A stretch of DNA of 58,978 nt from a virus, in IMG/VR virus record IMGVR_UViG_3300012964_000011, positions 1 to 58,978 of that record; one strand, given 5' to 3'. The notes below the pieces were generated by a model. That model saw nothing but the letters and a program-made list of their open reading frames with translations. It ran no database searches and was not told the DNA's origin. The position numbers and the translations under genes were made by a program. Of this stretch, positions 31,100-37,387 are shown one piece after another (within the stretch, counting starts at the first letter, position 1; each line of letters starts with the position of its first letter).

Positions 31100-31123
31100 C
31101 AACCTGTTGAAACTAACAGGTTG
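31100..31123. terminator. 9-bp hairpin at the end of the major capsid gene
   Basis: CAACCTGTT and AACAGGTTG pair around GAAACT, overlapping the capsid stop codon. Plausible attenuator or mRNA-stabilising end. Confidence 0.5.
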
Positions 31124-32807
31124 GGCAAGTGTATGTCGTAGCTGCGCCAACCGTTCCGTTCGGGCATATCGGTACAGTCACCAGACGACTCTCGTGCCCA
31201 AACCTAGCTACCAGGAAGCACTCTTCCATCCAAGCAGCCGTGTGATCGTTCGTCGCGTTCAGTGTGGAATCCCGGACAACACCCAGATCCAGGGACATAC
31301 CGTTGCCGCGAACCCAAGTACCGGCAGCGTAGATCAGGAACTGAACCGTAGTCGGCCACGTGGTCATTTCGACCGTGCCCCGACCCGGGAATCCAGTAGC
31401 TCTGACCTGCCAGTCCTGCACGAACTGCACCCGGACAGACCGGATGTTGAACCAGTTCGCGATCTGTGCGTTGGATATCTGGAAGTTGAAGTCCGGCGAT
31501 CCATAGACCCTCTTTGCGAGGTCGGCACGGATGCCACCGAGAATCCAGTCTGGCAGTACGACTTCCAGAACTTCCCAACTGTTCATCGCGTACCTGGTGC
31601 GGTAGTCGATCGCCTGCATCTCGATCGCGTCGAGAACTGGGACCGTGAGTCCGGTACCGGTCGGGCAAACGCTGACCGTGATGGAACCGGTGCATGTCGC
31701 ATCATTGTTCGCAGCAGCCATCTGTGCGATGACAGCAGCGTTGATGCGGTGCACATGACCGGCATTAACCAGTCGGAGGTAGTTTGCGATGCTCTCTGGC
31801 CATGCGCTGGTTGCCAGGTTACCGGCAGTCACACAGAGACCCTCACACTGCAAACGCTTCTCACAGTAGCTGGCACACGGTACGTGGCAACAGGTCTTGG
31901 TGCCGGACTGAGAGGTACCGGTGAGTGCTGCAATGTCCTGTGTCTCATTCCAAGCCCATAGACACGTAACGTCGCTCAGATCCTTGAAACTCGGTGAGAT
32001 TGGCCAGCGGATACCGCCACGGCGAATACCGATGGTCGGAAGGTCCAAGAGGCCATCCGTACCAACGATCTCGTAAAAGTCGTATTTGATCTCAGACGGG
32101 CTGCACCATCCGCCAGATGCAACCAGTGCCGCAGGGTTAGCGACTTCCCGCATCAATTCCTGGACATCCGCAGGAGACGTGTTGTCATCCATCACCGTGC
32201 GGAACTGGCGCTGTAGTGCAGCCACAGGATAGAAGGTCGGGACGCGGGATTTGGTGACCGGAAGTGCCTTTGCTCTAGAGGTCATGGCAGCAATGAGTGC
32301 TTCCATGTTCTCCAGTTTTCCGCCGGTTGCAAATCCAGGGATATCGGCAGAGGCAACCAGAGCACTCTGTGCAAACTTGTCTGTCAGTTTGGGCTGACTA
32401 CCGGTTGGCACGTAGTTCGCAGCGTCAGCGAGCCGGGCGTTGAGCTTGTTACCGTCACTGATGACGTGCTCAACTGGCGTCTTGGACTTGGTTGCAGCTG
32501 CAACAACAGGCTCTGGATCAGCAGGAGCCGGTTCAACCGGTGCCGTGATCTCTGAAACCTGGCTCATTCTGCTGGAAAGCGTCTCTACACTGAGTGCAAC
32601 AGTCTCCGTAGAGAGCTGAGCAGTCCTGGTGGACAGTTCAGTGGATGCAGCTTCCGCAATCTCTACCAGTTCAAGCATTTGAGCATCGTCATTGGCCTCT
32701 AGCGCCAGTGCGAATGCCGATTTAGCGTTGGTGACCAGAGCAGAGAGTTCTTCATTGGACAGTGCGGTATAGTCACTAGGACGCGTTACCGCCGGTGTGT
32801 CTGGCAT
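31113..32807 (-). CDS. major capsid protein (HK97 fold) with N-terminal scaffold-like region
   Basis: A 564-residue protein. Residues 1-170 are helical and charged, rich in A/E/S, like a delta or scaffold domain to be removed by the protease. The rest fits HK97-type coat proteins of actinophages, including CCHVPCASYCEKRLQCEGLC followed by VTAGNLATSAWPE, and the terminal RFGHESRLVTVPICPNG. GGGGGAAAAA precedes the ATG and a promoter lies 50 nt upstream. The cysteine cluster may cross-link or bind metal. Confidence 0.85.
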   Translation of the reverse strand: MPDTPAVTRPSDYTALSNEELSALVTNAKSAFALALEANDDAQMLELVEIAEAASTELSTRTAQLSTETVALSVETLSSRMSQVSEITAPVEPAPADPEPVVAAATKSKTPVEHVISDGNKLNARLADAANYVPTGSQPKLTDKFAQSALVASADIPGFATGGKLENMEALIAAMTSRAKALPVTKSRVPTFYPVAALQRQFRTVMDDNTSPADVQELMREVANPAALVASGGWCSPSEIKYDFYEIVGTDGLLDLPTIGIRRGGIRWPISPSFKDLSDVTCLWAWNETQDIAALTGTSQSGTKTCCHVPCASYCEKRLQCEGLCVTAGNLATSAWPESIANYLRLVNAGHVHRINAAVIAQMAAANNDATCTGSITVSVCPTGTGLTVPVLDAIEMQAIDYRTRYAMNSWEVLEVVLPDWILGGIRADLAKRVYGSPDFNFQISNAQIANWFNIRSVRVQFVQDWQVRATGFPGRGTVEMTTWPTTVQFLIYAAGTWVRGNGMSLDLGVVRDSTLNATNDHTAAWMEECFLVARFGHESRLVTVPICPNGTVGAATTYTCPTC

Positions 32808-32893: not shown

Positions 32894-33067
32894 CTACCTA
32901 CTATTTGCGTTTCGGAGTGCGGCTATGATGCTGGCTGATGTCATTCCAGCATTACGCCTACGATTGTCAATAGGCGCAGCATTATCTGTTGTTTGCACAT
33001 TAGTACTGCTACTGGAAGCATTCTGGATATTAGCCGGACGCTTCCTGCCTCCACCACAAGCACACAT
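32894..33067 (-). CDS. small protein between protease and capsid genes
   Basis: A 57-residue protein starting MCACGGGRKRP, a short cysteine/glycine/basic head also seen on small proteins in this position in actinophages. TAGGAGACGAG precedes ATG 33067. The rest is low complexity and asparagine/serine rich. Possible small head protein; function unknown. Confidence 0.6.
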   Translation of the reverse strand: MCACGGGRKRPANIQNASSSSTNVQTTDNAAPIDNRRRNAGMTSASIIAALRNANSR

Positions 33068-33075
33068 CTCGTCTC

Positions 33076-35343
33076 CTAGATCATACATATTCTAGATGTA
33101 GCACATTTACGAACACTTTCTTTCATCCTGGCAGCAAGATTATCACGTTTCTTACACGCGTAATCGTCTGTCATAGATTTGAACATAGCTAGTTGTGCTG
33201 GAGTAAGAGAGTCCAGGGGGGATGATGTATCCGGATTATCAGTGATGATCTCTACATCAACTGGTTCTTCCGCAGGATGTGTCCAGATACCAGCTGCAAC
33301 CAGAGCTGTCTGTTGCCCGGAGGCGACCATGGTAGACAACCTAGGAACTGGAAATCCGGGAACGTTGACTGCGAGCATTGCCACAAGTCGCAGTGCGCCC
33401 TTGATGCCTCGCCAGTCTCCAGATAGTTTTGCTGCCCGTAGTTCAGATACCTTTGTATCTGGAACATCTGGCCGAATCTTTCCAGAGATCCAGATACCAT
33501 AATCATCACAACCACTGGCAACATCTGCCACTACGGTACCGGTGTTGTCATAGTGTGCTACAGCCTTTTCAGCGTCCACACCATACGTAGACGCATGACC
33601 GGTGTCCATGGTGATGGTTCCTGTAGCTACCTCACCAGCGTCTGTCAGAACAGATCCTAGACGGTAATACTCATGTGCATCCTCGTAAGGAGGCTGTACA
33701 CATACCCCCTGGATTCCGGTATGGCAGGTTCCGAAAATCGCAGCATGACCTGAAATACGGCCATCATCTGTGACGGTTACTGGTGTGGGACCATCAAACT
33801 TTGGGTCTTCAAAGTAAGAACGGGATGGAAGCACTGCACTGGCAGTCATAGCAACTTCGTGAACACAGTTGATCTGGGACTCAACGAATGCGGGCAGTGC
33901 AACTACCGTAGCTCCTCTGATCCTTCCAGAATGAATGATCTTGTTTTCCAGGATAGGCGGACCATCCCCGACACTGGGAGCAAACACGTACTCGATGTCC
34001 GCCTCGGAGACATCGTCAACGTCTACGGAAACACCCTTAAGGAAACCATCGTGCACCATTCTGTGTACTTCAAAACCGTTTCCAACCATGTCGAATATGC
34101 CGCTACCTCTGATGATCGACATGTCCTCTGGATCTCTCCAGATATTTTCGATCATCCCAGATATTACAGCTCCCTCGTGTCCAGGGAGGGAGGATGGTTG
34201 CCATTGGAACGGTTCCGGTAGATTTGCCCATGTAAGGGATCCGGGTGCGAATGTCCTGCCATCCCCAGTAGGTCTACCCTCTACGACCAGCACCCCTGTC
34301 CAGGGGATATTTGTAATAGTATCTACATCACTTGCAAATATTTCAGTGTTACTTGCCATACCAACATCTAGATAAGACTGATGATCTTCCATAGATTCTG
34401 TAGCATCGCTTAACGATGGTTCAGCTGCATACAAGGCACGCAATTGCCGGAACGCACTTTGCGCAGTGTCATGGCATCCCATGACCTCGCCGCTACCCTC
34501 TTTGACTACGGCATAGGGCTTACTGTCTTCACACTGCTCTGATCGCACTACTTTGTATGGCATGACGTCCCCCGTGCGTGCCAAAGGAATATCAGTTACC
34601 TGATCATCGTATGCTACCCGTACCTTGTCAAAAGTAATAGGTCCCAATCTATCCATAGCCGCATCATGCACATCTGGATCCAGGGTGTAACCCAAGGTTA
34701 TATGTGCTACGAATGGTGAATGCTGCTTACGAACTGAATCTCCCAGAACATCACGAGCGGACATTTCTGCCATCGTGTGAACTGTCATTAGTTCATTGTC
34801 GTTGTCACCAACATTGAGAACAATTGCCGGATTATCCAGGGGATTAAATGTGGATACTCCGAAAACATTTGCGGATATCTGTGAAATACCAGATACACGT
34901 TGTGCCACACTCATGATCAGATCATCTGGATTAAGTGCGAGTGTATCTGTCTTACCCAGATACATAAGTGTTAGATGTATACTCTCCCTGGGCTCACGTC
35001 CATCTACTGCCAGTTTATCGAGATCACTCTCACTGGGAACCAGTGCGATCATCACGCCATCACTGTTTTCAGCACTGGCTCTGATGGCTGAATCCAGCAG
35101 TTTGCAGGATGTGACCTTACCTAAATACGTCTGTTGTCTGGCACCAGCTGACGTTGCAGAGACATGCTCGTCCACGAGGGTGAGGATGTCTCGGATCGAC
35201 AGTCGAGCGCACTCATCTATCGTAGATTGTACATATTTTGCGGCATCGATTATTTCTTTGCCCGACCTCGACAGCGTCATGCCATGTCGGCCGTAAGACT
35301 TGAAAGTTGAGTAGATCAATTCCCCGTCCATATGCCTACTCAA
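33076..35343 (-). CDS. 2H-phosphoesterase fused to capsid maturation protease
   Basis: A 755-residue protein with an unusual build. Residues 1-90 are helical. Residues about 95-258 form a 2H phosphoesterase (LigT-like) domain with both HxT motifs, H123-L-T125 (SIHLTLMYLG) and H214-I-T216 (AHITLGYT). Residues about 275-310 hold KPYAVVKEGSGEVMGCHD, and about 340-560 the prohead protease core (GVLVVEGRPTGDGRTF, PGHEGAVISG, FLKGVSVDVDD). A second region (GRISGHAAIFGTCHTGI, ending VNVPGFPVPR) completes the actinophage protease type. TTG 35343 overlaps the portal stop; ATG 35331 is an alternative. An internal start at 34563 may give protease alone. Confidence 0.8.
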   Translation of the reverse strand: MSRHMDGELIYSTFKSYGRHGMTLSRSGKEIIDAAKYVQSTIDECARLSIRDILTLVDEHVSATSAGARQQTYLGKVTSCKLLDSAIRASAENSDGVMIALVPSESDLDKLAVDGREPRESIHLTLMYLGKTDTLALNPDDLIMSVAQRVSGISQISANVFGVSTFNPLDNPAIVLNVGDNDNELMTVHTMAEMSARDVLGDSVRKQHSPFVAHITLGYTLDPDVHDAAMDRLGPITFDKVRVAYDDQVTDIPLARTGDVMPYKVVRSEQCEDSKPYAVVKEGSGEVMGCHDTAQSAFRQLRALYAAEPSLSDATESMEDHQSYLDVGMASNTEIFASDVDTITNIPWTGVLVVEGRPTGDGRTFAPGSLTWANLPEPFQWQPSSLPGHEGAVISGMIENIWRDPEDMSIIRGSGIFDMVGNGFEVHRMVHDGFLKGVSVDVDDVSEADIEYVFAPSVGDGPPILENKIIHSGRIRGATVVALPAFVESQINCVHEVAMTASAVLPSRSYFEDPKFDGPTPVTVTDDGRISGHAAIFGTCHTGIQGVCVQPPYEDAHEYYRLGSVLTDAGEVATGTITMDTGHASTYGVDAEKAVAHYDNTGTVVADVASGCDDYGIWISGKIRPDVPDTKVSELRAAKLSGDWRGIKGALRLVAMLAVNVPGFPVPRLSTMVASGQQTALVAAGIWTHPAEEPVDVEIITDNPDTSSPLDSLTPAQLAMFKSMTDDYACKKRDNLAARMKESVRKCATSRICMI
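34561..34576 (-). promoter_or_regulatory. internal ribosome-binding site and start within the protease fusion gene
   Basis: CACGGGGGA followed by CGTC and ATG 34563 (residue 261, MPYKVV). The same ACGGGGGA element precedes the portal, capsid, major tail and tape measure starts. It falls exactly between the phosphoesterase and protease domains, so a stand-alone protease of 495 residues is likely made. Confidence 0.65.
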
Positions 35344-35348
35344 CTTTC
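35302..35348. repeat. 13-bp inverted repeat around the start of the protease fusion gene
   Basis: GAAAGTTGAGTAG and its complement flank a 21-nt loop. On leftward RNA the stem covers the portal stop and the TTG start; the loop exposes ATG 35331. It may control translation of the fusion. Confidence 0.65.
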
Positions 35349-36995
35349 CAATTGACGTACATTGGCTGGTGCCTTGCTCCGCATTCCCTTTCCACTGTCT
35401 TTCTTGACAGTGTCTGGCCTAGTTCCTGGTGGTTCTTTGGCAGTCGTCTTGGAAACTAGTGACGGATCTACAGGTTCAACATCTGTGTCAATACCTGGAT
35501 GTTGCATATCATTTGGATTCTTGACCTTACTGATGATGTCTAACATTTCATCATTAGGTACGTCATTGAGCAGTAGTGCAAGTGCTGTCAACGAATCAGC
35601 ATTGGCAGACATCGCGATACGCCGAAGTACGATGTCTCGAATCTCTTTGTCATCCGGTGCATCGTCTTCTGGATCGAACCCGGAAGCGTCACGAAGGGTT
35701 GAGCCCTTAAGCTCGCCACGGTCGAACATTTCCTGTGCTGGCACTGTCCTGTCCGGCACCTGTGACAGTTCAGACGTGTCATACCACATGACGTAACGTC
35801 CACCGTCAGATCGCACCTCTGGCACCTTGTTGGCTGCCAGCATAGGCCCGAGGAATCCAAGGGAGAGTCCGTTACAGATGGTTTCCGCACCAGGAGAAAT
35901 GTAGATCTTGATAGCTGACTCTTCCATTTGCCACTGTCCCCAGTGGTTAATATCAGACATACCAGTCAAAATTTCAGTTGGTATGTTGATGGAAGTAGCC
36001 AAACGCTTTATTGCACGTTCCCTGTCCTCATAGACCTTATCTCCCATTTCGGTAGAAAAGGTCATATGACGGAATGATTCTATGTACTGTGAAGGAACAC
36101 GAATCGGGATAGGAACTGCCGCTGCCGCGGATCCAGGGTTTTGGATAGCTTTAGACGCTATGTCTACTAGATCAGCAATGAAGGGGTCTGGTGCGTTCTT
36201 GTGCTGAGGCTTGGACGGTAGTTGTACCTCATCTGGGATCAACAGGATGCCGTTTGACGCCAACCTGGATAGCAGAATGGCAACTATGTATCGATTATAG
36301 AAGTCAATCTCTTTGAGAATTGGTAGTGCTGCTATGACGGCAGATGATGCCTCACACGCGTACTCATCATCTTCTTGCCAAATACGGGCAACCAGCGTAT
36401 CAGGTCCGAGTGTACGCCACTCATTCTTGACGTCCCCCATGACGTCGTATCGGTTGTGGATTGACGTTTTCCCGTTGCTAGTAGCCTTGACATAGGTACC
36501 TGATTTACGTAGCTCAGAGTTAGATCTGACAGACCACACCCGCTGTCCGTCTACCTCTTCACCAACCAGGTAGGACTCACCCGGTACGGCCAGCTGAACA
36601 GCCAGCTTACGCATCAGTGCAGCTTGCCCGCCGATTCCTCCGCCCAGTTCCTCAACCAGGTTGGACACTGCTACAGCTTCAGTGTCAGCATCTTTATTGT
36701 TGATGATGATCTGAGGATCTTGCCCAGGATAGGCGATTGCTGCCCGAATCCGGACACGGGACATGCTGTTGCCATACCAATCATGGATGGCAAAGTGAAG
36801 TTCTCCCATATTCTTGTAATAGTTCCAAGCTTCAGCCTGGACTGATGTGCGCTGTATGATAAAACTACGAGATAGATCGTCAACCAGTTGTGCAGACGCG
36901 GTGATTCCACTATCACTAATGACTGATCTCTTAGTCATTTGACGTGGCTTGAGTGACACAGGATTACTCCTGCGCACATGTCTACGCTCCGCCAT
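35340..36995 (-). CDS. portal protein
   Basis: A 551-residue protein of the SPP1-gp6-like/actinophage portal type: WNYYKNMGELHFAIHDWYGNSM near the N-terminus, DTLVARIWQED, a DRERAIKRLATSINIPTEILTGM segment and HWGQWQMEESAIKIYI. It forms the dodecameric channel through which DNA enters. ACGGGGGTAAC precedes the ATG and a promoter lies at 37021-37049. The basic C-terminal tail (KKDSGKGMRSK) is disordered. Confidence 0.9.
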   Translation of the reverse strand: MAERRHVRRSNPVSLKPRQMTKRSVISDSGITASAQLVDDLSRSFIIQRTSVQAEAWNYYKNMGELHFAIHDWYGNSMSRVRIRAAIAYPGQDPQIIINNKDADTEAVAVSNLVEELGGGIGGQAALMRKLAVQLAVPGESYLVGEEVDGQRVWSVRSNSELRKSGTYVKATSNGKTSIHNRYDVMGDVKNEWRTLGPDTLVARIWQEDDEYACEASSAVIAALPILKEIDFYNRYIVAILLSRLASNGILLIPDEVQLPSKPQHKNAPDPFIADLVDIASKAIQNPGSAAAAVPIPIRVPSQYIESFRHMTFSTEMGDKVYEDRERAIKRLATSINIPTEILTGMSDINHWGQWQMEESAIKIYISPGAETICNGLSLGFLGPMLAANKVPEVRSDGGRYVMWYDTSELSQVPDRTVPAQEMFDRGELKGSTLRDASGFDPEDDAPDDKEIRDIVLRRIAMSANADSLTALALLLNDVPNDEMLDIISKVKNPNDMQHPGIDTDVEPVDPSLVSKTTAKEPPGTRPDTVKKDSGKGMRSKAPANVRQLES

Positions 36996-37051: not shown

Positions 37052-37387
37052 CTAGTCTTCCGATTTTTCCTCCGGCTCCATGTTGGCAATCAAACCAGTC
37101 AATGATGATGCTGATAGACCTACCAATACCCATACAGTCCAGGGGAACCAGGATTGATGCATGACATTAGTCGTGTACAGTGCTAGCCCGGTGGTAAGAG
37201 CAGCAGATACCCACACTCCAGAGCACCAGTCACACTGTGTCAGATATGCAAACCAGTGCTCAGACCCCAGTTTGCGGTCTATCCACTCCCTGGGCAGTCG
37301 AACCAGGGGAATGTAGTCACGTGTCACTAGCCTTGTCACTCTGTGAGTGGCAAAAGTCAATAGAACTAGAATAAGCCATCCTGACAT
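37052..37387 (-). CDS. DUF1360-like membrane protein
   Basis: A 111-residue membrane protein. HRVTRLVTRDYIP, then CDWCSGVWVSA and a second hydrophobic segment (WTVWVLVGLSASSLTGLIA) match DUF1360 proteins found beside packaging genes in actinophages. TATTCT lies 6 nt before the ATG, implying a leaderless transcript. Role unknown; membrane location is inferred. Confidence 0.75.
   Translation of the reverse strand: MSGWLILVLLTFATHRVTRLVTRDYIPLVRLPREWIDRKLGSEHWFAYLTQCDWCSGVWVSAALTTGLALYTTNVMHQSWFPWTVWVLVGLSASSLTGLIANMEPEEKSED

Follow-up and report, generated by a model that had tools for sequence, protein, structure and literature searches.

A conserved in-frame internal start in a phage 2H phosphoesterase-capsid protease fusion gene suggests a separately made protease

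Capsid proteases are recruited into proheads, and head proteases are commonly autolytic. The head protease gene of phage lambda (C/Nu3) contains an in-frame internal start that yields a shorter scaffold product. The gene described here resembles C/Nu3 in carrying an in-frame internal start within a capsid protease gene and, as predicted, a second and shorter product; it differs in that the lambda short product is a scaffold, whereas the short product here would be the protease, freed from an N-terminal enzyme domain.

This N-terminal domain belongs to the 2H phosphoesterases. Iyer and co-workers proposed that phages package and inject 2H domains that are joined to MuF or portal domains in polyvalent and head-packaged phage proteins (Iyer et al., 2017, PMC5512222; again in 2022, PMC9503650), and suggested that the injected domains work as RNases or break down signalling nucleotides, countering nucleotide-signalled defence. 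Like our gene, these proteins join a 2H domain to head-morphogenesis proteins, but the relevant passages of the two papers name MuF and portal fusions and mention neither an internal start nor a pair of products. Homologous 2H and protease domains are found in one gene, in the gap between portal and major capsid genes, in Arthrobacter phage Tank (gp18), Curtobacterium phage Kithara (gp23) and Streptomyces phage Xkcd426 (gp12). The order of domains varies among these actinophage fusions; ours is 2H-Small-ProN-ProC, with no MuF domain in the gene. The 2H-capsid protease fusion itself is already known; in the searchable literature the conserved internal start seems new, with papers on MuF and capsid protease fusions reporting none. 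Among literature matches on virion proteomics, we found none covering 2H proteins.

Two described enzymes invite comparison with the 2H domain. Acb1 (PMC9117128) shares its 2H fold and, as far as the window sequence goes, the HxT/HxT tetrad, but is a compact stand-alone enzyme with which sequence profiles do not group it. LigT/ThpR is closest to it by sequence profile and among the closest by fold (5ldm), but is a cellular stand-alone enzyme, and our domain scores under its family cut-off.

The window, meaning the whole stretch of DNA that was analysed, is a virus record of 58,978 bases with 47.7% G+C (IMGVR_UViG_3300012964_000011). Its minus strand encodes the head genes, which run terminase, DUF1360 protein, portal, 2H-protease gene, a tiny ORF and major capsid protein. 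The features are as follows:

35340..36995, minus strand: portal protein gene, adjoining upstream (phrog_776, E=1.4e-107)
33076..35343, minus strand: 2H-protease fusion gene, an open frame of 755 codons (start TTG 35343, alternatively ATG 35331)
34570..35055, minus strand: 2H phosphoesterase domain, residues ~97-258 (PF13563, AlphaFold, Foldseek)
34969..34977, minus strand: first catalytic motif, H123-L-T125 (H and T in 53/53 aligned sequences)
34696..34704, minus strand: second catalytic motif, H214-I-T216 (H in 51/53; third position C in 45, T in 6)
34568..34573, minus strand: internal ribosome-binding site GGGGGA (best anti-SD energy among in-frame starts; identical site in the split relative L062)
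34561..34563, minus strand: internal start ATG (M261), predicted start of the free protease (aligns with the gene start of split relatives L062 (GGGGGATTAAATG), L021 and L066)
34408..34563, minus strand: junction ('Small') domain, residues 261-312, [MV]P[YW]...C...P[YW]AVVK...GCH (conserved in relatives, immediately after the internal start)
33844..34323, minus strand: ProN domain, putative S78-like prohead protease, residues ~341-500 (weak Peptidase_S78 matches in relatives)
33247..33849, minus strand: ProC domain, residues ~499-699 (phrog_18402 head maturation protease, E=1.5e-74)
31113..32807, minus strand: major capsid protein gene, downstream (phrog_777, E=4.4e-117)

The tiny ORF (32894-33067, minus strand) has 57 codons, begins MCACGGGRKR and separates the protease gene from the major capsid gene; short ORFs with a Cys-rich start occupy the same position in phages BruhMoment, Tank, Kithara, RubyRalph, Xkcd426 and Tardus. 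The DUF1360 protein (PF07098, E=1.8e-7; 37052-37387, minus strand) has the terminase on one side and the portal on the other, a position held in BruhMoment and Kithara by small ORFs annotated as membrane proteins.

The N-terminal domain matches the Pfam family PF13563 (2_5_RNA_ligase2) over residues 114-233 with E=3.4e-10, over the family cut-off. An AlphaFold2 model of residues 80-262, made with an alignment of 53 sequences, reached a mean pLDDT of 90.5 and a pTM of 0.85, and its top Foldseek matches in the PDB were human Usb1, Bacillus subtilis YjcG, Escherichia coli LigT and a plant cyclic nucleotide phosphodiesterase (E 2e-6 to 4e-6). On this model, a 2H fold is well supported for the window domain, which thus combines the two H-x-T/S motifs and the fold by which members of the 2H superfamily are recognized. 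In the same alignment of 53 sequences, a Tyr after motif 2 (Y219) is nearly invariant. A 2H profile built from distant relatives was too diverse for use as a search query.

An earlier note on this DNA had pointed to phage 2H enzymes (Acb1) that block CBASS and had suggested a defence-counteracting or RNA-processing role for the domain. An Acb1-type enzyme delivered with the DNA would block CBASS by destroying cyclic oligonucleotides, and both the Foldseek match to Acb1 of phage FBB1 (E=1.6e-5) and the Acb1-like HxT/HxT tetrad of the window (PMC9117128) point in this direction. However, Acb1 is one of several fold matches and ranks below LigT, YjcG and Usb1, and the sequence comparisons point elsewhere: the nearest solved structure by profile is LigT-like (PDB 1vdx, E=3.8e-5), with Acb1 at E=0.97, and the Pfam Acb1 profile PF23474 does not match the window domain and finds one of the 53 aligned sequences (E=0.004). 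Furthermore, the HxT of the window is a minority form of motif 2, which is HxC in 45 of the 53 aligned relatives. A CBASS-blocking role is not specifically supported, and we regard an anti-CBASS enzyme of the Acb1 type as improbable. By sequence, the domain resembles the LigT/ThpR RNA 2',3'-cyclic phosphodiesterases more than Acb1; the corresponding NCBIfam family, TIGR02258, is matched with E=8.4e-8 at 32.3 bits, below its curated cut-off of 65.7. Possible substrates are RNA ends with 2',3'-cyclic phosphates, 2'-5' oligoadenylates and cyclic oligonucleotides, CBASS not being favoured.

The C-terminal part of the gene is matched from residue 333 onward by PHROGs of head maturation proteases and related head families. 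Peptidase_S78 gives weak matches in 12 of 65 relatives (best 1.9e-4) and none in the window protein itself; in all four matching relatives checked for position, the match falls within ProN. This domain has an invariant serine (S439) and a histidine (H389) present in 50 of the 65 relatives. Conservation across the gene is highest in ProC, where H583, H597, S641 and D643 are invariant. Family homology and the place between portal and major capsid genes are the two attributes by which a capsid maturation protease is identified, and on both counts, as judged from sequence, a protease is well supported here, with no structural match for its fold: Foldseek with the protease model (pTM 0.47) returned no PDB fold match below 1e-3. 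The earlier note had thus described the gene correctly on several points, placing the two HxT motifs exactly at H123 and H214, proposing a 2H fold, which the structure prediction recovered, and recognizing the fusion to a capsid protease module, which the phrog_18402 match and the portal and major capsid neighbors bear out.

Three further observations concern this module. ProN and ProC are not a tandem duplication of one protease, a relationship ruled out by hhalign (probability 0.6%). The family phrog_859, matched by 33247-34347 of the window, is labelled portal protein, yet its profile spans the ProN-ProC module, and the label probably stems from a family member that is fused or misnamed. 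The junction domain alone, as a 53-residue query, found no match in named phages; profile searches recover many relatives.

At the junction between the two parts, GGGGGA lies four bases ahead of ATG 34563, at the start of the junction domain. With an anti-SD duplex energy of -8.6 kcal/mol, this codon ranks first among the 37 in-frame ATG and GTG codons, and first of 45 when TTG is included; the starts of the full-length protein have weaker sites (-2.4 for TTG 35343 and -4.0 for ATG 35331). Taken alone, the window gene gives p = 0.08 when its codons are recoded synonymously.

The relatives of the gene are more telling. L062, which with the fused L116 is nearest to the window on the protease tree, encodes both domains as separate genes in one frame with a single stop codon between them, and its GGGGGA-TTAA-ATG corresponds to GGGGGA-CGTC-ATG in the window. 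The protease gene of all three split relatives listed above begins at the codon of the internal start, and the site is also present in the separate protease ORF of others (e.g., L031, L038, L044, L188). Over a tree of 95 proteases the fused or split state changes 19 times, at least 11 of these forced by well-supported branches, although some splits could be sequencing errors of metagenomes; fusion and separation therefore recur at one point of the gene, with the protease start kept. Six Streptomyces prophages from sequenced isolate genomes are fused and have the junction site.

We measured how widely the site is kept by thinning the fused relatives at 85% protease identity to 83 distinct lineages, defining a strong site as an anti-SD energy of -8 or better and taking random 18-codon windows of the same ORFs as control. 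A strong site with a start codon stands at the junction in 60 of the 83 lineages, against 4.8% of control windows; the lineages are not fully independent, and binomial p-values are therefore too small. Within the junction class of the window the arrangement occurs in 22 of 23 distinct lineages. Lineages without a recognized junction domain have a strong site in 25 of 44, a weaker result obtained over a wider search zone, and most of the 23 lineages that lack one by the anti-SD measure are of these types. The start codon is ATG, GTG or TTG, and the arrangement is usual behind N-terminal parts of all three kinds, 2H, 2H-MuF and MuF-2H. In all eight genes with the exact arrangement of the window, the junction start outranks every other in-frame start.

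Several direct fusions have their SD within a Leu/Ser-Gly-Gly stretch, and part of the signal could thus follow the protein. We therefore redrew the upstream codons synonymously according to the usage of each gene, with mid-p values combined by the Stouffer method. A first test, gene by gene, was weak; combined over the 23 lineages of the window's class it was strong, the observed SD beating its recoded versions in 22 of them (Stouffer p=4e-11), with a smaller effect in the other two junction classes (p=0.01 and 0.005). The residues that spell the junction SD vary (TGD, RSG, QEG, EGG, LGG), as do the codon registers. This argues against the protein sequence as the whole cause, and the recoding excess, with the varied residues and registers, points to selection acting directly on the ribosome site. 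A gene within a gene of the lambda C/Nu3 type is recognized by an SD and a start codon that are conserved, in frame and placed where two domains meet, and the retention of both in dozens of related viruses suggests a working design and not chance.

One could still suppose that only the full-length fusion is made, that the internal SD and ATG are a chance occurrence or a relic of two genes, and that any separation of the domains is autoproteolytic. Relatives with separate genes make a relic conceivable, and autolysis is common among head proteases. However, a relic would decay, and the site is kept in many diverged fused lineages beyond what synonymous recoding predicts, which makes a relic unlikely. 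It is moreover missing elsewhere in these genes where domains meet (3 of 79 at ProN/ProC, 0 of 32 at 2H/MuF and 3 of 27 at MuF/2H), compared to 35 of 39 at the junction domain. We consider such a fusion-only gene very improbable. The earlier note had predicted, on the basis of a single sequence, release of the protease through an internal start at exactly this ATG; the site and its position hold, its rank and recurrence go beyond chance, and the comparative data support the prediction far more strongly than one sequence could.

Our preferred explanation, which we hold to be fairly probable, is that two products come from one gene and that the fusion is packaged, its 2H domain being injected to cleave phosphodiester bonds. 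Ribosomes entering at the first start (TTG 35343 or ATG 35331), which has a weak site near the stop codon of the portal gene, would make the 2H-protease fusion, while the internal GGGGGA and ATG 34563, a stronger site, would give the protease module alone. From the anti-SD energies of the two sites (-2.4 or -4.0 against -8.6), we infer that the fusion is the minority product and the free protease probably in excess. Because proheads take up capsid proteases, the fusion could bring 2H domains inside in limited numbers: its protease part would draw a minority of fused copies into the prohead, and the fusion thus probably enters the head. Cleavage during maturation may then release 2H domains inside it. 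Gene position and fusion by themselves make it plausible that the 2H domain is carried into the capsid and the cell, where, having entered with the DNA, it might open cyclic or 2'-5' phosphodiester bonds in RNA or in a nucleotide signal. The domains, their fusion and the nucleotide-level conservation of the internal start are observed; the two products, their ratio, packaging, injection and substrate are what we infer.

A search with tblastn found relatives in 1,058 phage records and the 2H domain in 370, from hosts that are nearly all actinobacterial; a single-protein search of viral contigs gave no relatives, and alignment-based searches did. Databases label them RNA ligase, capsid maturation protease or MuF-like fusion. 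The order is MuF-2H-protease in Xkcd426, BruhMoment and Tank, 2H-protease in Kithara and RubyRalph, and protease-2H in Tardus; Mycobacterium and Rhodococcus phages have stand-alone 2H genes near the portal. Rhodococcus and Nocardia prophages (L171-L174) have the 2H domain inserted between ProN and ProC. The cyanophage Pam4 (L011:1303-4344) has a Nudix-like domain in the 2H slot, with MuF before and the protease after it. Close behind the portal of Gordonia phage Kabocha (L015:3755-5835), a 2H gene is followed directly by a gene for a VIP2-like ADP-ribosyltransferase.

This distribution bears on whether the 2H domain is injected at all, as both products might be made with 2H helping in assembly or targeting, inside the producing cell or the prohead. 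The domain is nearly confined to head loci, since 78 of the 80 loci found with the 2H domain alone as query have head genes no more than 6 kb away (50 of them with 2H fused to the protease), and it swaps places with MuF, a structural head domain. A purely structural role fits less well with the nearly invariant catalytic histidines (53/53 and 51/53), with the stand-alone 2H copies in head loci of other phages and with the Nudix domain in the same slot of Pam4, which suggests a swappable enzyme. We judge an assembly module rather unlikely, and keep to packaging followed by injection.

More broadly, and more tentatively, actinobacterial phages may use the capsid protease as a packaging handle. 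The internal site would set the ratio of free to fused protease, so that few copies of cargo enter each head, and the cargo (2H, MuF, Nudix) would be swapped and permuted while the dual start is kept.

Should both products exist, two proteins would be encoded by each of a large class of head genes now annotated as 'RNA ligase' or 'capsid maturation protease', and the free protease would have been overlooked by current annotation. The arrangement would then offer a concrete and testable route for loading enzymes into heads in controlled low numbers, and the proposal of an injected counter-defence function for head-fused 2H domains would become directly testable in laboratory phages.
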